The notes beneath the pieces were generated by a model that was given only the letters and a program-made list of their open reading frames with translations, was not told the origin of the DNA and made no database searches. The translations under genes were made by a program, and so were the position numbers. This document shows, piece after piece, positions 462 to 19,938 of a DNA stretch of 21,850 nt. Within the stretch, counting starts at the first letter, position 1. Every line of letters begins with the position of its first letter. The stretch comes from a virus, in IMG/VR virus record IMGVR_UViG_3300023439_000062, positions 1 through 21,850 of that record; one strand, written 5' to 3'.

Positions 462-560
462 AGAGCTACATAGAGGCCGTATAAGCCTCGTTAATTAAAA
501 ATCTATACGAGTGTATAGGGTTAATAGTTTTTAAGCCTTATAAAGCCTCTATGTAGCTCT
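462..560 (-). repeat. 16-bp perfect inverted repeat spanning the ATP-grasp stop and the next ribosome binding site
   Basis: AGAGCTACATAGAGGC at 462-477 is the exact reverse complement of 545-560. On the leftward mRNA one arm is the last codons of the ATP-grasp gene and the other abuts the AAGGAG of the 23-codon ORF. The 67-nt interval holds a second small hairpin (CTATAC/GTATAG at 504-519) and an alternative one (GAGGC/GCCTC at 473-489). It could be an RNase III-type processing stem or a translational switch; there is no U-tract for a terminator. Confidence 0.6.
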
Positions 561-1350
561 TAAGGGCATTGTGATACTTATTGAATGTGGTATCTTTAAG
601 GGCAGGTGCAGTATTTACTTCAATGATAGCATAATCTTGTAATTTAACATCACCATCCACTGATTTAATTATCGCGCCTACATCTATAGCAGCAAAATCT
701 AACCCCAACGCTTCTACAGTTTTGATACAACTCTCTTCAATTTCAGGAAAAATGATAACATCCTGAATACAGAACACATATCCATTATCGAAATTACGGA
801 TTAAAGGATTATGAACTAGTCCTAATTGTTCCAAAGTTTCAGATTTACGTTTACGTTTTTCTTGTACATGTATTACTTTTCCGTTAAAGATGTGGTATCT
901 ATATTCATGGGTTAAAGGAAAGTGTGCAGTGTATAATTCTGCGTCTACAAGTTCATCTTTATTATTGGCAATTACTATACCTTTACCCTTACAACTTTTT
1001 ACTTTAGTTCTGCAATATACTTTATCATTCGTGTTAAATAAATATTTTGCATCTTCTTTGTTTAAAGTAAAAGTAAGAGAAGGTATATTGTTATTATGCA
1101 ATATTTTTAATGTTTTAATTTTATTAATAGCATTATGAACTGATGCTGGATCATTAAGCCATCGTTTAGGATGTGTTCCATTATAGTAACTACTGCCCCA
1201 ATTGATACATAAATCGTCATAGTGAGGATAATTATATTTACGAGAACGGATTACTAAATTTAAAGACCTTGCTAATTTAATATCAAATGTACGTCTTAAT
1301 TTAAGTTTATTATGTAATCTATATTTTTTACGAACAAGCATTGAAATCAT
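538..1350 (-). CDS. ATP-grasp ligase (carboxylate-amine/peptide ligase type)
   Basis: A 270-aa ATP-grasp enzyme, a family that joins a carboxylate to an amine through an acyl-phosphate at the cost of ATP. Visible signatures are the NDPASVHNAINKIKTL stretch (about residues 67-82), the ATP-lid-like RTKVKSCKGKGIVIA (about 114-128), the HEYRYHIFNGKVIHVQEKRKRK strand typical of phage and RimK-like members, LDFAAIDVG, and the metal-binding IEVNTAPAL near residues 243-251, with Glu and Asn as likely Mg ligands. The start at 1350 has GAAGG at proper spacing; a second ATG three codons on is possible. The next genes leftward are a 23-codon peptide and a class I glutamine amidotransferase. Phage clusters of ATP-grasp, amidotransferase and amidoligase proteins have been predicted by comparative genomics to make peptide-like modifications; the actual substrate here cannot be read from the sequence. 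Confidence 0.8.
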   Translation of the reverse strand: MISMLVRKKYRLHNKLKLRRTFDIKLARSLNLVIRSRKYNYPHYDDLCINWGSSYYNGTHPKRWLNDPASVHNAINKIKTLKILHNNNIPSLTFTLNKEDAKYLFNTNDKVYCRTKVKSCKGKGIVIANNKDELVDAELYTAHFPLTHEYRYHIFNGKVIHVQEKRKRKSETLEQLGLVHNPLIRNFDNGYVFCIQDVIIFPEIEESCIKTVEALGLDFAAIDVGAIIKSVDGDVKLQDYAIIEVNTAPALKDTTFNKYHNALKSYIEAL

Positions 1351-2985: not shown

Positions 2986-3339
2986 TTACCCGCAAAACTC
3001 TGAGTTATACGGGCATATATCATTATAGAAACCAGACCCGCATTGGCAAGTGGATGTTGGGATTTCTTTGACCCTGTACGTAACAGGGTTCCCTGCGAAC
3101 CGCTGTACCTGTTCAAATGACAGCTCTTTGCCGCGCAATTCAGCAGGGATGTTCAGAGGCACCTCTGTGATAGAGTTGGCGTGCACAGCTAACGATAACG
3201 GCAACACGCCTATCACATCCCTGTCTTTTACATCTTCGACTGTGGCATGGGCAACCACAGTATCTTCAGGGGACATTAAGTCCATCTTTAAAAGATATTC
3301 AATTAGCCCACTGTGTCTGGTTACGATCACTTTTTTCAT
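2986..3339 (-). CDS. csx16-like: Csx16-like protein, candidate ring nuclease (anti-type III CRISPR)
   Basis: The 117-aa protein opens with MKKVIVTRHSGLIEYL, then VVAHATVEDVKDRDVIGVLPLSLAVHANS (about residues 28-56), VPLNIPAELRGKELSFEQV and a final YRVKEI. This matches the order of conserved blocks in the CRISPR-associated Csx16 (VVA1548) family: V-x-RH-G-x-x-E, V-AH, V-IG-LP, LP-ELRGKELS. Csx16 proteins accompany type III systems and have been assigned as ring nucleases that destroy cyclic-oligoadenylate signals. A phage copy without cas genes nearby would plausibly blunt a host type III defence; that is inference. After the domain comes a tail with CQCGSG and further cysteines, resembling a zinc-binding SEC-C motif. 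The base composition looks less AT-rich than that of its neighbours, hinting at separate acquisition. A dyad-TATAAT element precedes it. Confidence 0.65.
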   Translation of the reverse strand: MKKVIVTRHSGLIEYLLKMDLMSPEDTVVAHATVEDVKDRDVIGVLPLSLAVHANSITEVPLNIPAELRGKELSFEQVQRFAGNPVTYRVKEIPTSTCQCGSGFYNDICPYNSEFCG

Positions 3340-3396: not shown

Positions 3397-3939
3397 TTAT
3401 GCAGCTTCTTGTTGATCTTCTGGTTCAACCAACTCTTTAAGTTGTTCTTCGAGGGCTTTTAACTCCTCGAGTTTATTAACAAAATCAGACACTAAAAGAG
3501 AGTCGATGTCTTCGAACTCAACAACAAGCTTTTCCATACGCTTTGTTGCGCTTAATATTCCCTTCAAAGATTTATTAAGGTCATTTGATTCCGTATCCTC
3601 GGTCTCTTTCTTTTCCCAGAATGGCGTCTTAATAAGGTTTTCCACCTGTTTTTTGGTAAATTTTAAGGCTTTACCTTTTCTTTTAAATCTGAATGACTCA
3701 GATTCTTTATCGTAAATAATATTTAAGTGGTCACATAACCACCTAACGATAAGTTTTTTATAAATGGACTTATTGTTAACGGATTTTATACCGTTAGACA
3801 ACAATGCAATGTTGCCTGATTCGGCAACGTGGAATGAAGCACTAACAAATGCTTCAAAGTATATAGTCTTAGCTTCAGATTCGAAACGGCTGGCCGTTTC
3901 GATTGCTTTGATTACCTGATTTGCTTCATATTTTTTCAT
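3397..3939 (-). CDS. Acidic early protein of unknown function (180 aa)
   Basis: A soluble, mostly helical protein. The first half (about residues 1-95) carries MKKYEANQVIKAIETASRF, a repetitive Ser/Asn stretch and a basic FRFKRKGKALKFTKKQ patch. The second half (about 100-180) is a probable coiled coil of Glu/Lys/Leu heptads ending LEEQLKELVEPEDQQEAA. The ribosome binding site is GGAG, well placed for the ATG at 3939. It has a dyad-TATAAT element about 60-95 nt upstream. The basic patch next to an acidic coiled coil could fit a nucleic-acid or host-protein binder, but I do not recognise a family. Confidence 0.65.
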   Translation of the reverse strand: MKKYEANQVIKAIETASRFESEAKTIYFEAFVSASFHVAESGNIALLSNGIKSVNNKSIYKKLIVRWLCDHLNIIYDKESESFRFKRKGKALKFTKKQVENLIKTPFWEKKETEDTESNDLNKSLKGILSATKRMEKLVVEFEDIDSLLVSDFVNKLEELKALEEQLKELVEPEDQQEAA

Positions 3940-3977
3940 AGCAATTACTCCAGTTATTTAAAGAAAACGATAGGAAA

Positions 3978-4018
3978 CCTATCTATAAAAGCACTAAAGT
4001 AATGCCATTATAGATAGG
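3978..4018. repeat. 11-bp inverted repeat overlapping a promoter-like element
   Basis: CCTATCTATAA (3978-3988) is the exact reverse complement of TTATAGATAGG (4008-4018), with a 19-nt spacer. The right arm overlaps the TATAAT box of the dyad promoter at 4007-4033. It could be a second operator, or form a leader hairpin only in transcripts that started further upstream. Confidence 0.45.
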
Positions 4019-4033
4019 CGGTCATCCGTGACC
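4007..4033 (-). promoter_or_regulatory. Dyad-TATAAT promoter-like element upstream of the 180-aa gene
   Basis: Minus-strand GGTCACGGATGACC (4020-4033) is a perfect 5-bp dyad with a CGGA centre, followed after exactly 7 nt by TATAAT (4007-4012). It is the best copy of the three. It begins 10 nt after the stop of the 67-aa gene. Confidence 0.55.
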
Positions 4034-4042
4034 TACCAGCCC

Positions 4043-4246
4043 TCATTCGTCATAAAAATGACTGGGGACTAGGTAATCGTCCCCCATGTCGGTTACGACT
4101 AACCATTCGCCGCCACCCCTGGCGACTTCTTCTTTTTTACACATATCCCTAAAATTGGGAATATGCGAAATAGGGCATTGCAAGTAATTTGCAAGACCCT
4201 CGTTGGTTAAACGAAGTTTCGAAATATTGATTGTGAAATCATTCAT
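4043..4246 (-). CDS. Small protein of unknown function (67 aa)
   Basis: It starts MNDFTINISKLRLTNEGLANYL, followed by CPISHIPNFRDMCKKEEVARGG and an acidic end (VTDMGDDYLVPSHFYDE). I chose the ATG at 4246, which follows GAGGGTGTATC, over an upstream ATG at 4291 that lies inside the stem of the ncRNA terminator. It is the first gene after the non-coding RNA, so terminator read-through is one way it could be expressed. No domain recognised. Confidence 0.6.
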   Translation of the reverse strand: MNDFTINISKLRLTNEGLANYLQCPISHIPNFRDMCKKEEVARGGGEWLVVTDMGDDYLVPSHFYDE

Positions 4247-4269
4247 GATACACCCTCGTAATAAAGAAT

Positions 4270-4309
4270 TAAAAGAACAAAAATAAATCACTCTAAATCA
4301 AAGTGATTT
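4270..4309 (-). terminator. Rho-independent terminator of the non-coding RNA
   Basis: On the minus strand AAATCACT pairs with AGTGATTT (4302-4309 with 4285-4292), an 8-bp stem with a 9-nt loop, followed by ATTTTTGTTCTTTT. The stem is AT-rich, so it may be leaky and let some transcription reach the leftward genes. Confidence 0.65.
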
Positions 4310-4846
4310 AGTCTTGTCCCTGTAGGCGCATGAAGGTTTGCTAGACCTTACCACACGCCTACAGAAGGCACTATTACGCGGTCATTTTGCTTTCGCCGCT
4401 ATAATATAACCCATGATTGAACTAGGTCTGTATTGCTATTTTTTCACAATAAAGCCTAATCCATTGTTATAAAATCCTTTTATACACGGATTAACCCTGT
4501 TACGGGCTTTCGTACCTATTTCATGGTGCTAGTACTACAGAACTCGCAAGACCCCGCCCAAAAGTCAAAAATACGCTAAATCCTTGTATTTTATGAACTT
4601 TTCGGCCTGCACTCCACATATGAACGAGCTTTTTTTCTAGCATTGCATAAACCCACAGACCTACTTGTTAAGTGAGTAATGCGCTAGGATAGAGACTCTA
4701 CTCTACCTGTAGATTGCAACATCTAGCAAGCTATACCAAACTTCAGCATAACCAAGTCACGTTAACACCTTGTGACTCACGGACTACCCGTGTCTAGCTG
4801 CAATCACTCGCCCTAATGAAGGGGCGCGCTAATTCTAACACCATAT

Positions 4847-4858
4847 TGTTAAAGAGCG
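4847..4858 (-). promoter_or_regulatory. boxA: boxA antitermination element
   Basis: The minus strand reads CGCTCTTTAACA, a full match to the boxA consensus bound by NusB-NusE (S10) in rRNA leaders and lambdoid nut sites. It starts roughly 26 nt after the expected start of the nearest promoter and follows directly after a small hairpin (GTGT-TTCTG-ACAC), the boxB-boxA order of rRNA leaders. Confidence 0.7.
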
Positions 4859-4891
4859 TGTCAGAAACACTTGTTTTCCGACTTGGGTTCT

Positions 4892-4919
4892 ATTATACAG
4901 ATCCCAATCAATTTGTCAA
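4892..4919 (-). promoter_or_regulatory. Consensus sigma70 promoter (nearest to the ncRNA)
   Basis: Minus strand TTGACA (4914-4919), 16-nt spacer, TATAAT (4892-4897). Both hexamers are perfect. The expected start is near 4884. Confidence 0.85.
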
Positions 4920-4959
4920 TCCCTATGACGTTTTGTTTAATCCCTTAACTTGGTTTCAC

Positions 4960-4987
4960 ATTATACAGGATTAGATATGAATGTCAA
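4960..4987 (-). promoter_or_regulatory. Consensus sigma70 promoter
   Basis: Minus strand TTGACA (4982-4987), 16-nt spacer, TATAAT (4960-4965). Both hexamers are perfect. The spacer ends CTG before TATAAT exactly as in the next promoter 68 bp downstream, so the two may have arisen by duplication. Confidence 0.85.
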
Positions 4988-5026
4988 TAGCCAGAAAAAA
5001 TCTTGCATATATATAATGCTCGCGCG

Positions 5027-5055
5027 TGAATAACATAATTTTGTCAGTCTGTCAA
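5027..5055 (-). promoter_or_regulatory. Probable sigma70 promoter with extended -10
   Basis: Minus strand TTGACA (5050-5055) and, 17 nt on, TATTCA (5027-5032) preceded by TGT, an extended -10 arrangement. The -10 hexamer is weaker than in its neighbours. Confidence 0.55.
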
Positions 5056-5087
5056 TAGCTAATAGAAAAGAAAAACAAAATTCTATT

Positions 5088-5116
5088 ATTTTACCAGAGT
5101 TTGCCAGACTTGTCAA
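5088..5116 (-). promoter_or_regulatory. Sigma70 promoter
   Basis: Minus strand TTGACA (5111-5116), 17-nt spacer, TAAAAT (5088-5093): a perfect -35 and a 5/6 -10. Confidence 0.72.
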
Positions 5117-5142
5117 ATGCATATTTTTCTGACAAATCTACC

Positions 5143-5171
5143 ATGATAACAGAAAAAGTTAGGCATGTCAA
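5143..5171 (-). promoter_or_regulatory. Sigma70 promoter (furthest upstream of the array)
   Basis: Minus strand TTGACA (5166-5171), 17-nt spacer, TATCAT (5143-5148): a perfect -35 and a 5/6 -10. It starts the five-promoter array. Confidence 0.7.
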
Positions 5172-5438
5172 ATTTAGTCGATAGGGTGGTAGGTTGGGAA
5201 TGATGCGATATGTGTGGTATATATGTATATATGACCCTCATACCCTCTCTTTCTTTTTCCTTTCTATATATAAATATTAATACTACCAAAATAAACAAAT
5301 CTAAGCTTGTTTAAGAGACGATAATATTTTACCAGTATATTACCTTACTCTATACATTTTTAAGCCATAGGGTGCCTCTATGGAACTTTAATTATATATA
5401 TCATGTCTAACTCTACAAAAATATAAATAAATATTATT
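5172..5438. other. Divergent intergenic region upstream of the late block
   Basis: No gene is supported. It holds a plus-strand pyrimidine tract (about 5236-5270), AT-rich sequence and a hairpin CCATAG/CTATGG (5365-5370 with 5378-5383) followed by TTTAAT at 5387. A rightward promoter must lie here or further right, but I find no good sigma70 match, which suggests that late genes use a phage-controlled promoter. Confidence 0.4.
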
Positions 5439-5705
5439 ATGCCAAGTTCAAAAAATTATAAACGAGATTATAACCAAGAATACAAAGTATCTCAGTCTTC
5501 AAAAGCTGAAATTAAAAAACGTAGTTCTAGAAATAAGGCTAGAAGAATGATGATGAAAAAAGGAAAAGTTAGATTAGGAGATTCAATGGATGTAGATCAT
5601 AAAAATATGAATCCTTTGAATAATTCAGTATCCAATCTTAGAGTAGTATCTAAATCTAAAAATAGATCATTTAAAAGAAATTCTAAAGCTGGAAAGAAGA
5701 GATAA
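5439..5705 (+). CDS. Small HNH endonuclease-like protein
   Basis: An 88-aa basic protein starting MPSSKNYKRDYNQEYK. Residues about 47-83 hold the HNH core DVDHKNMNPLNNSVSNLRVVSK: the DH pair supplies the catalytic histidine, and the SNLRVVSKSKNRS strand-helix is typical of short phage HNH proteins found next to terminase genes. The N-terminal half is a positively charged DNA-binding-like helix region. It is the first gene of the rightward block, one base before TerS (5707). Such proteins either assist terminase cleavage in cos-type packaging phages or act as free-standing homing nucleases; the position next to TerS favours the packaging role, without proof. Confidence 0.8.
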   Translation: MPSSKNYKRDYNQEYKVSQSSKAEIKKRSSRNKARRMMMKKGKVRLGDSMDVDHKNMNPLNNSVSNLRVVSKSKNRSFKRNSKAGKKR

Positions 5706-11433: not shown

Positions 11434-13746
11434 ATGAGTAATATTATAACAATACCTCACGAGTTTAAACCTCGACCTTATCAATTAGAATTATTTAAAG
11501 CAATGGATAGCGGATATAAAAGAGCTATTGTTGTATATCATCGTCGAGCAGGTAAAGATAAATCATTATTTAACCTACTTATTAAAAAAGCTTTTGAACG
11601 AAAAGGTGTATATTATTATCTTTTTCCTGAATTTGCACAAGGCCGAAGAGTAATCTGGGATGGCGTAGATGGGTCAGGATTTAAATTTTTAGATCATATT
11701 CCAGAACAACTAATTCAACGTAAAAACTCTACTGACATGAAACTTGAATTAGTCAATGGATCTGTCATTCAAGTTATTGGTACAGATAAGTTTGATAAGG
11801 TTCGAGGATCTAATCCAGTAGGATGTGTATTTTCAGAATTTGCATTTCAAAACCCTAAAGCATGGCATATTGTAAGACCAATTCTTGCTGAAAATGGTGG
11901 ATGGGCTTGTTTTAATAGTACTCCTAATGGTAAAAATCATTTCTATAAGATGTATAATATGGCATTGAATAACCAGAATTGGTTTACTCAATTTCTTACA
12001 GTAGATGATACTAAAGATTGGGATGGAAATCCCATCATTACACAAGAGGCTATCCAAGAAGAAATTGATGCCGGAATGTCTAAAGAAATGGTTCAGCAGG
12101 AATTTTATTGTTTTCTTCCATTTGTATCTGATGTTATTACAAATAATGGAATTAAAGATATATCAGAAATAACTACATCTGACATGGTATTAACTCATGG
12201 TAATTCATATAGAAGAGTGAGAGGAGTATCTAAAAGATACTATTCAGGAGAAATTCTTAAAATAAAAGTAATAGGTAATAATAAACCAATTTATTGCACC
12301 CCGAATCATCCTTTTAGAGTATGTAACGATGGTGTTAATAATAAATGGATTCCAGCTGAAAATCTAAGTTTAAGTGATAGGCTAACAATACCTAGACCTC
12401 TTGTTGATAATTTTAAAGTTATTTCAGAAAATTTAGCATTCATTATATCTTGGTATATAACTGAAGGATCTTGTGGTAAAAATACTGTTCAATTTACAAT
12501 CAATCTGTCTTCTGAAAAAGATATTAGTAAAAAACTAAAAAAAGCGATTAAAGAAGAGTTTGGATTAAAATGTAAATTTTATGATAATATTAAAAATAAT
12601 ACTAGAACAATAACTGTATGTTCAAGACATTTACGTGAATTCTTAATACTTAATTGTGGAGCAGGCTCTATTAATAAGAAAATTCCTCCAATAATAAAGG
12701 GTTATGAACAATTAGTATTTGATAATTTAATATTAGGTGATGGACATATTCAAAATAATTCTGAATTTATATATACGACTATTTCAAAAACTTTAGCATA
12801 TCAAGTGCAATTATTAGGAAATTCGCTAGGGTATAAAATGCGAATTAGGGAAATTAAAAATAATTCTAATGGAAATATTTTAGGTAGGAATGTTTTATTA
12901 AACACTGTATATGATATAAGAGGAAATAAATCATCTAAATCTCGATTTATAAATAAACATAAATATAATTATTCTACTAAAATACTTTCAATAGAAAAAG
13001 AACATTACGAAGGTAATGTATATAATTTAGATGTAGCAGAAGAACATAGTTATTGTGTAAATTCTATAGTAGTACATAATTGTTCATGGATTGCAAATTC
13101 ACAAGGATTTTATTTTCTTTCTCTAATTGAAGAAGCAGAACAAGAAAAGAGAATAACTAATTTAGATATAGATCCTTCGGTACCAGTAAGTACCTGGTGG
13201 GATATCGGTGTAGGCGATAATACCTGTATTTGGTTTACTCAAATTGTAGATAATAAAATTCATGTAATTGATTTTTTACAAGATAAAGGTAAAGGACTAG
13301 ACCATTATGCTAAATTATTACAGCGTAAAAAATACATCTATGCTAGTCATAATTTTCCTCATGATATAATGAATATTGAATTTGGAACAGGTAGAACTAG
13401 ATTTGAAGTTGCTGAAAAGTTATTTGTAGGAACAAAAGTAAATTGTATTCCTAAACTTCCCTTAGAGGAAGGTATTAATGCAGTACGTATGGTATTACCT
13501 TTGTGTTATATAGATCAAAAAAGATGTGCAATAGGAATAGATGCACTTAAAAATTATCATAGACAATTCGATGAAAAAAATCAAGAATACAAAGACAAGC
13601 CTGTACATGATTGGTCATCTGATCCAACTGATGCTTTTAGATACATGAGTATAGGAATTACATTACCAAAGAAAAGATCATTTAGATCTGAATATATGAG
13701 AAACTCAAATAAAGTAGTTTCAATTAAGGATTGGAAAAGCGCATAA
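11434..13746 (+). CDS. terL: Terminase large subunit, interrupted by an intein
   Basis: The packaging motor and nuclease. The 770-aa precursor shows a Walker A-like HRRAGKDKS (residues 36-44), Walker B VGCVFSE (129-135), and an RNase H-like nuclease with Asp590 in WWDIG and the closing DWSSDPTDAFRYM (about 727-739), whose aspartates are likely metal ligands. Residues 226-549 are an in-frame intein; without them the protein is 446 aa, normal for a compact T7-like or Terminase_6-type TerL. The two exteins join as QQEFY-CSWIANS, between ATPase and nuclease. It starts 2 nt after the holin stop, with a poor ribosome binding site, and shares TAATG with the portal gene. Packaging should depend on protein splicing. 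Confidence 0.92.
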   Translation: MSNIITIPHEFKPRPYQLELFKAMDSGYKRAIVVYHRRAGKDKSLFNLLIKKAFERKGVYYYLFPEFAQGRRVIWDGVDGSGFKFLDHIPEQLIQRKNSTDMKLELVNGSVIQVIGTDKFDKVRGSNPVGCVFSEFAFQNPKAWHIVRPILAENGGWACFNSTPNGKNHFYKMYNMALNNQNWFTQFLTVDDTKDWDGNPIITQEAIQEEIDAGMSKEMVQQEFYCFLPFVSDVITNNGIKDISEITTSDMVLTHGNSYRRVRGVSKRYYSGEILKIKVIGNNKPIYCTPNHPFRVCNDGVNNKWIPAENLSLSDRLTIPRPLVDNFKVISENLAFIISWYITEGSCGKNTVQFTINLSSEKDISKKLKKAIKEEFGLKCKFYDNIKNNTRTITVCSRHLREFLILNCGAGSINKKIPPIIKGYEQLVFDNLILGDGHIQNNSEFIYTTISKTLAYQVQLLGNSLGYKMRIREIKNNSNGNILGRNVLLNTVYDIRGNKSSKSRFINKHKYNYSTKILSIEKEHYEGNVYNLDVAEEHSYCVNSIVVHNCSWIANSQGFYFLSLIEEAEQEKRITNLDIDPSVPVSTWWDIGVGDNTCIWFTQIVDNKIHVIDFLQDKGKGLDHYAKLLQRKKYIYASHNFPHDIMNIEFGTGRTRFEVAEKLFVGTKVNCIPKLPLEEGINAVRMVLPLCYIDQKRCAIGIDALKNYHRQFDEKNQEYKDKPVHDWSSDPTDAFRYMSIGITLPKKRSFRSEYMRNSNKVVSIKDWKSA
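12109..13080 (+). mobile_element. Intein with LAGLIDADG homing endonuclease in TerL
   Basis: 324 codons begin at Cys (codon 226, CFLPFVSDVITNNGIK) and end in VVHN just before Cys550. Visible splicing residues are the N-terminal nucleophile Cys1, block B TPNH (Thr64, His67), the penultimate His and terminal Asn (H323, N324) and the +1 Cys of the extein, so a standard class 1 mechanism is expected. Block F is YEGNVYNLDVAEEHSYCVN. Between the splicing halves are two dodecapeptides, LAFIISWYITEG (about 109-120) and VFDNLILGDG (about 203-212), with Glu119 and Asp211 as the likely catalytic acids of a DOD endonuclease, so it is probably a mobile, active intein. Base composition is even more AT-rich than the exteins. 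Confidence 0.93.
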
Positions 13747-19087: not shown

Positions 19088-19938
19088 AAAATTTGTCGCC
19101 TAGCAGCGTAATCTGCTAGTGAAAATCTCTCTAATTGCTGGAAACTCTTGATAGGTACTTTAACTACAAACATTACGAAAGTAGATGTTGAAAGTTTAAA
19201 AATAAAGTAATAGAGACAATCAGCAGCTAAGACTCTAAGTAGAAACTTATTAGCAATTTTAAGTGTCTATATGAGTAAAGTTCAACGACTAGAGCATGGC
19301 TCGTACACTTTTAGCTTAAAGTGGAAATGGGAGATATCGTATGAAAGAGTGTAAATATTGTAAACGCAAGGATGATGGCGTAATTCCTTTTGTCCAAGAT
19401 GAAAGGAAATGTGTTGAGTGTAGGAATAGACTCAAAAGAGAAAAATATAAGAATGATTTAGAATATAGGAAACGGGTTATAGAATATAATTCGAACTATA
19501 GAAATCAAACAGAAAATAAAATTAAATTTAAAAAGTACTATAAAGAATATTCAACTAATTCTAAAAATAAAGATAGAATTAAAAAGATTAAGTTAAAATA
19601 TTCTAAAAATAATCCTCATAAGATTAATGCGCATACTGCATTGCGCAGAGTTAAAAAATTGCAAAGAACTGTTTTTAATAATGATATTACAAATCATAAT
19701 ATAAAAGAAACATATAAATTATGTGCAATATTAAATAAACATTCTAAACAAACTTTTAACGTAGATCATATAATTCCTTTACAAGGAAGGTGTGTATCTG
19801 GATTACATGTTACTCTTAATTTACAAGTTATTCCCTCACAAATAAATTTTTACAAAAATAATTCTTTCAACGATAAAGATATAGTCTAAACTACATGGAG
19901 ACATGTAGAGATACAAGGAATGTATCGTAATATAATTG
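19088..19938 (+). mobile_element. Group I intron 2 in the capsid gene
   Basis: 851 nt with the same core order as intron 1: AATTGCTGGAAAC (19133-19145), AATCAGCAGCTAAG (19218-19231), GTTCAACGACTAGA (19280-19293) and AAGATATAGTCT (19876-19887), with P7 as GACTA (19287-19291) and TAGTC (19882-19886). P1 may be exon CGAT (19084-19087) with GTCG (19095-19098), again with U-G at the splice site, followed by a 7-bp P2-like stem (19100-19106 with 19113-19119). The 3' end TAATTG matches intron 1. This gives VD-KMFGFLKP. An alternative boundary (DKI-FGF, ending the intron at ATG, 19944) would also fit the family, so the exact nucleotides are less certain than for intron 1. Confidence 0.85.
19341..19889 (+). 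CDS. HNH homing endonuclease of capsid intron 2
   Basis: 182 aa, the same length as the intron 1 enzyme but clearly diverged. A zinc-ribbon-like start (CKYC at 4-7, CVEC about 24-27), a basic helical middle (KNKDRIKKIKLKYSKNNPHK), and an HNH domain FNVDHIIPLQGRCVSGLHVTLNLQVI (about 141-166) ending with INFYKNNS. DH is the catalytic pair. The DIV-stop end again overlaps the ribozyme S element. GGGAG precedes the ATG. It is expected to cut at the capsid exon 2/exon 3 junction of intron-less relatives. Confidence 0.9.
   Translation: MKECKYCKRKDDGVIPFVQDERKCVECRNRLKREKYKNDLEYRKRVIEYNSNYRNQTENKIKFKKYYKEYSTNSKNKDRIKKIKLKYSKNNPHKINAHTALRRVKKLQRTVFNNDITNHNIKETYKLCAILNKHSKQTFNVDHIIPLQGRCVSGLHVTLNLQVIPSQINFYKNNSFNDKDIV

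Follow-up and report, generated by a model that had tools for sequence, protein, structure and literature searches.

A non-coding, strongly folding RNA appears to be encoded on the minus strand of a podoviral DNA of 21,850 bases (a whole IMG/VR record, here called the window), from about 4885 to 4276. It is probably a fast-evolving, structured, boxA-bearing untranslated leader RNA, released as a discrete molecule in the phage of the window. Judged by its letters, the RNA carries the defining sequence of boxA-dependent (Nus-factor) transcripts, an element that was not named in the earlier note on this DNA and is new in the present analysis.

Results

Location and gene neighbourhood of the RNA

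The source of the window is a podovirus with a P22-type portal, a capsid protein, TerS, TerL and an Rz-like spanin. The RNA region is flanked by a rightward packaging operon (HNH, TerS onward) and a leftward operon of small genes, and the RNA itself lies on the minus strand (Table 1). The first gene downstream of it had no PHROG or Pfam match in profile searches. Several other features of the window were recorded. In the operon behind the RNA, a 117-aa protein (2986-3339, minus strand) matches Pfam Cas_VVA1548 (PF09652, E 9e-17), which in our reading equals Csx16, a family of type III CRISPR ring nucleases; it is a possible candidate for a phage counter-defence gene. An ATP-grasp-like protein (phrog_2599) is encoded at 538-1350 (minus strand), and the relative MW202615.1 has at the matching place a cluster of amidoligase and gamma-glutamyl cyclotransferase genes. 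The large terminase gene (11434-13746, plus strand) contains an intein holding a LAGLIDADG endonuclease domain and is uninterrupted in several relatives. A group I intron (Rfam RF00028; 19078-19405, plus strand) is found at the 3' end of the capsid gene, adjoining an ORF at 19341-19889.

Table 1. Features of the RNA and its surroundings in the window.
Feature	Position	Strand	Basis or remarks
phrog_1448 family gene, function unknown	3397..3939	-	PHROG match and comparison of relatives
Small ORF, 67 aa, first gene downstream of the RNA	4043..4246	-	ORF analysis
Structured untranslated RNA, about 610 nt	4276..4885	-	Fold z-score, absence of ORFs, syntenic non-coding region in relatives
Terminator-like hairpin and U-run	4276..4318	-	z -5.9
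Nested hairpin, 9-bp outer stem and inner stem	4320..4364	-	z -4.7; loop TCTAGCAAA at 4345-4337
boxA, GCTCTTTAACA	4847..4857	-	Exact match to GYTCTTTAANA; identical to E. coli rrnB leader boxA
5' hairpin directly ahead of boxA	4860..4882	-	Fold z -2.2
Promoter, perfect TTGACA-16-TATAAT	4892..4919	-	From the -10 position, transcription is predicted to start at about 4885
Promoter, perfect TTGACA-16-TATAAT	4960..4987	-	Sigma-70 scan
Two promoter-like sites, TTGACA-17-TATCAT (5171-5143) and TTGACA-17-TAAAAT (5116-5088)	5088..5171	-	11/12 consensus matches each

Coding capacity, composition and folding

The limits in Table 1 improve on the 4270-4884 of the earlier note, within which the longest open frame on the RNA strand has 40 aa, in agreement with its claim that the region holds no convincing ORF. 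Conserved coding had been named there as one pattern that would speak against an RNA; we looked for a conserved open frame across the 13 syntenic regions described below and found none. The GC excess over the flanks reported in that note (41% in the RNA region) holds mainly on the right, where the flank has 30%; the left flank has 37%, and the whole window is at 32%.

The folding energy of the RNA has a z-score of -10.4 against shuffled sequences (-7.8 with another shuffle set). Taking the window in 600-nt steps on both strands gives 72 segments, of which the one with the RNA has the most extreme fold. There are three stems of at least 8 bp, a number reached by 2 of 200 shuffles, and neither these stems nor the total folding energy is a product of chance. 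The earlier note had also pointed to about ten short perfect helices; 11 of at least 6 bp are indeed present, but 24 of 200 shuffles reach that count, so it is ordinary and was dropped as evidence of structure. The nested pair that it singled out proved sound, and the loop of this hairpin is the motif that recurs in relatives.

Two further observations concern structure in this part of the window. Directly downstream of the RNA, the stretch 3601-4200 (minus strand), which spans the small ORF and the gap ahead of the phrog_1448 gene, has the next most extreme fold (z -8.9 against shuffles). Within the RNA, TTGCTAGA (4729-4722, minus strand) is perfectly complementary to the TCTAGCAA loop (4345-4338, minus strand), and the two may form a pseudoknot or kissing contact. 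In L028, ATTAGCAA and TTGCTAAT occur in the order opposite to that of the window, so the complementary pair may be due to chance.

Promoters, boxA and terminator

The strong minus-strand promoters proposed previously correspond to two perfect sigma-70 sites, the only TTGACA-16-TATAAT sites in the window (0.11 expected), both directly upstream of the RNA. The intrinsic terminator proposed on the same strand corresponds to a long terminator-like hairpin with a T-run; a simple terminator scan based on G+C omits this hairpin because it is A+T-rich. From this terminator to the next gene, the promoter scan found no strong promoter in the window.

A hairpin followed by boxA is the order of rRNA leaders, and the same order is seen here. 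The boxA lies on the transcript strand, 28 nt past the predicted start, and fits exactly a consensus that was published for gammaproteobacteria (PMC5725501). The tandem promoters and the exact boxA, found again at the corresponding site in relatives, bear out the rRNA-like expression signals that had been suggested. Across 477 kb, searched on both strands, the consensus boxA has 10 matches, and seven of them are inside RNA regions, all on the RNA strand. These matches fall in six of the 13 regions (the window, L004, L005 twice, L020, L022 and L031); the other seven, some of them cut by a contig end, have no consensus boxA.

Syntenic regions in related phages

Relatives were gathered through the portal, HNH and TerS proteins, with portals mostly 60-72% identical (68% for MW202615.1). 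Thirteen syntenic regions were readable, namely those of the window, L002, L004, L005, L014, L020, L021, L022, L023, L026, L028, L031 and L102. In the relatives, too, the minus strand between HNH-TerS and the leftward operon holds a non-coding region, and phrog_1448-related genes follow it in L004, L005, L020 and L022, with a second group in L002, L021, L023 and L026. Clusters of 2 to 5 sigma-70-type promoters accompany most regions, the background density being 0.67 per kb and strand; a single promoter is found in L014, L026, L028 and L031, and none in L002 under the strict rule. Rows of 4 or 5 promoters, about 65-110 bases apart, stand upstream of the RNA region in L020 (3429-3110, minus strand) and L162 (465-220, minus strand). 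Fold z-scores, obtained for 11 regions, range from -0.5 (L004, no better than shuffles) to -7.8, with L021 at -7.6, and 10 of the 11 are below the control median of -1.6.

A clear terminator was seen in just three members, namely the window, L005 and L022, where a discrete RNA is therefore likely. In the other relatives no intrinsic terminator between the RNA and the next gene was evident by eye, so there the RNA may join the downstream mRNA or be released by processing.

A larger portal alignment was used as an out-of-sample test, and the only new contig with the right region, L162, ends ~200 bases past its last promoter. Single TerS and phrog_1448-type proteins, used as queries in a scan for close relatives, found nothing. 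Two candidate relatives were rejected, KPP25 for having gaps with neither boxA nor hairpin and Acidovorax phage AP1 for its different layout. Scanning bacterial genomes with the portal revealed no relatives, and thus no host and no prophage; from the form of boxA and the spanin, the host would be a gamma- or betaproteobacterium.

Sequence conservation and a recurrent hairpin

A BLASTN search of phage and plasmid records with the RNA gave no real match. In an all-against-all comparison of the regions, all that is shared beyond boxA is a 65-base tail of L005 and L022 and an 18-base hairpin of the window and L004. The tail, TAATGACCATACAGAATTT, is found only in L005, L022 and one unrelated contig, and one hairpin and the terminator hairpin within it keep their pairing through compensating changes.

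The 18-base hairpin pointed to a motif that recurs: a loop of 9 nt, of the TAGCAA-containing type seen in the window, on a stem of 4-5 bp. It is present in the window, L002, L004, L005, L026, L028 and L102, and in a looser form in L023 (8 of 13 regions overall). In the discovery test the loop 6-mer was common to seven of the 13 regions, which none of 100 shuffles reached. The density of TAGCAA hairpins within the regions is ~35 times that in the remainder of the contigs, and half of the TAGCAA words there belong to a hairpin, versus 11% of those outside. The stem has compensating changes at all five pairs, but the hairpins were chosen partly for their stems, so the inside-outside density is the fairer test. 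Since its place within the RNA varies, the motif looks like a movable module. Covariation, which the earlier note had proposed to look for, was found in the small recurrent hairpin and the short L005/L022 tail only, the rest of the body not being alignable.

A 16-base hairpin pattern was also run across IMG/VR, and its matches, L004 excepted, lacked a boxA in their vicinity and were attributed to chance. We rejected a reading of the TAGCAA hairpin as a tRNA anticodon arm (some members have a 7-nt loop and a 5-bp stem), because its closing pair is not conserved and ARAGORN detects no tRNA at this place.

Comparison with known RNAs

None of the 4227 Rfam models was matched by the RNA or by the regions of the relatives, in line with the earlier suggestion of a ~600-nt structured RNA that is possibly outside the named classes. 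The GOLLD and ROOL models gave no match to E 10 in the window at 3950-5450, none at gathering threshold in the window and none to E 0.5 in the relatives, so the RNA is neither GOLLD nor ROOL. Those RNAs are located in phages or prophages, often near tRNA genes, and have covariation-supported stems and form homo-oligomers (PMC12286853). The present RNA resembles them in being a large, strongly folded RNA of a phage, but its sequence is far less conserved. No tRNA island lies alongside it: the window has no tRNA, and those of L004 and L005 are about 9-12 kb off. Scans for tRNA and tmRNA found none, which excludes that identity, and mimicry of rRNA was rejected, the words in common with E. coli 16S and 23S being at the shuffled expectation.

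The E. coli rrn leaders share with this locus the tandem sigma-70 promoters, the hairpin followed by an identical boxA and the long untranslated RNA after it, but here no rRNA sequence follows boxA, and the body is short and phage-specific. Lambda nut and HK022 put sites are likewise RNA elements close to the beginning of a leftward operon in a phage, and the boxA is of nut type; the present RNA differs in having no boxB 3' of boxA, its adjacent hairpin standing 5' unlike lambda-type nut boxB, and in its strongly folded body of about 400-650 nt. No N-like gene was found among the Pfam and PHROG matches, although N proteins are short and divergent and so easily missed. Passages in PMC7862264, and references therein, describe a benefit of boxA to long untranslated RNAs, namely rRNA and CRISPR arrays. 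Like the boxA-bearing leaders of CRISPR arrays cited there, the phage RNA has a boxA on a long untranslated non-rRNA transcript, but it is strongly folded and without a repeat array.

Discussion

On balance we favour a reading in which a structured untranslated RNA heads the leftward operon, is made from sigma-70 promoters, is protected through boxA and Nus factors, and mostly ends near 4276 with some read-through. The lack of coding, the structure, the promoters, boxA, the terminator-like end and the recurrence in relatives come from sequence. Host sigma-70 RNA polymerase would transcribe the RNA from the promoter cluster, and boxA, emerging near the 5' end, would load host NusB-S10 with SuhB, NusA and NusG, as on ribosomal RNA. 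The loaded complex would render the polymerase Rho-resistant over about 600 untranslated bases and help the RNA to fold. Most transcripts would stop at the hairpin ending near 4276, so that a discrete RNA accumulates, and read-through past it would feed the downstream genes. That the phage draws on the Nus factors of its host is an assumption; the loading of these factors, how abundant the RNA is and when it is made, how well the terminator works and whatever the RNA does by itself are what we infer here. Host-type promoters and position would suggest early expression.

Sequence alone decides neither for a cis-acting leader nor for a trans-acting RNA. A body that changes so rapidly suggests that the conserved function lies in the cis-acting signals, and the extreme folding of several members, most of all in the window, speaks for the importance of the body as well. 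The alternatives overlap with the reading that we favour, and our confidences are not meant to sum to one.

There is a real, if less than even, chance that the RNA is purely a cis-acting leader, in which boxA and hairpins form a Nus antitermination or attenuation device of the leftward operon and the remainder is filler, folded and hidden from Rho. The region is always directly upstream of the operon, with no strong promoter before the next gene in the window, conservation is limited to boxA and a small hairpin, and most relatives have no evident terminator. Against this, the folding of the body exceeds what such a device needs (z -10.4; L021 z -7.6), and boxA alone is not known to let polymerase through intrinsic terminators such as that at 4276.

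Rather unlikely, in our view, is a trans-acting large ornate RNA with a GOLLD/ROOL-like role, free, abundant and self-assembling or binding host machinery, whose promoters and boxA only boost yield. Its size, extreme folding and terminator-like end would suit it, and the recurrent loop could be an assembly or docking site; but the body cannot be aligned between phages whose portals are two-thirds identical, the position of the motif shifts, most relatives show no terminator by eye and no Rfam model matches. Of the overall interpretation in the earlier note, an untranslated structured RNA of ~600 nt stands, whereas a free GOLLD/ROOL-like RNA is not supported by the terminators and alignability of the relatives. 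We regard as similarly doubtful a new large phage RNA class that has kept the TAGCAA-loop hairpin and the rRNA-type boxA, has lost most of its sequence and would act in trans, for example as a self-assembling scaffold or an occupier of host Nus or ribosomal factors.

An ordinary non-coding spacer folded by chance, which the lack of alignable sequence, the shuffle-like fold of L004 and the near-chance count of short stems would allow, is improbable given the fold of the window's RNA, the enrichment of boxA, the perfect promoters and the recurrent hairpin. A decoy drawing NusB-S10 or other factors of rRNA synthesis off host ribosomal operons would explain the exact rRNA boxA, at most two copies per RNA (L005), behind strong tandem promoters, but it would not need a long folded body and about half of the regions have no boxA, and we consider it very improbable. 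Least credible of all is a packaging RNA in the manner of phi29 pRNA, tied to the neighbouring terminase genes: its place beside HNH-TerS is constant and its sequence poorly conserved, but the terminase subunits and portal of the phage are ordinary and need no pRNA, and the RNA is transcribed away from them.

If the structured, boxA-protected leader that we favour is the true reading, phages borrow the ribosomal boxA device for a long non-coding RNA of their own. The relatives provide a defined collection of phage loci that retain position, promoters, boxA and a small hairpin around a rapidly changing RNA body, and this bears on Nus-factor biology and on the reason for large structured phage RNAs.
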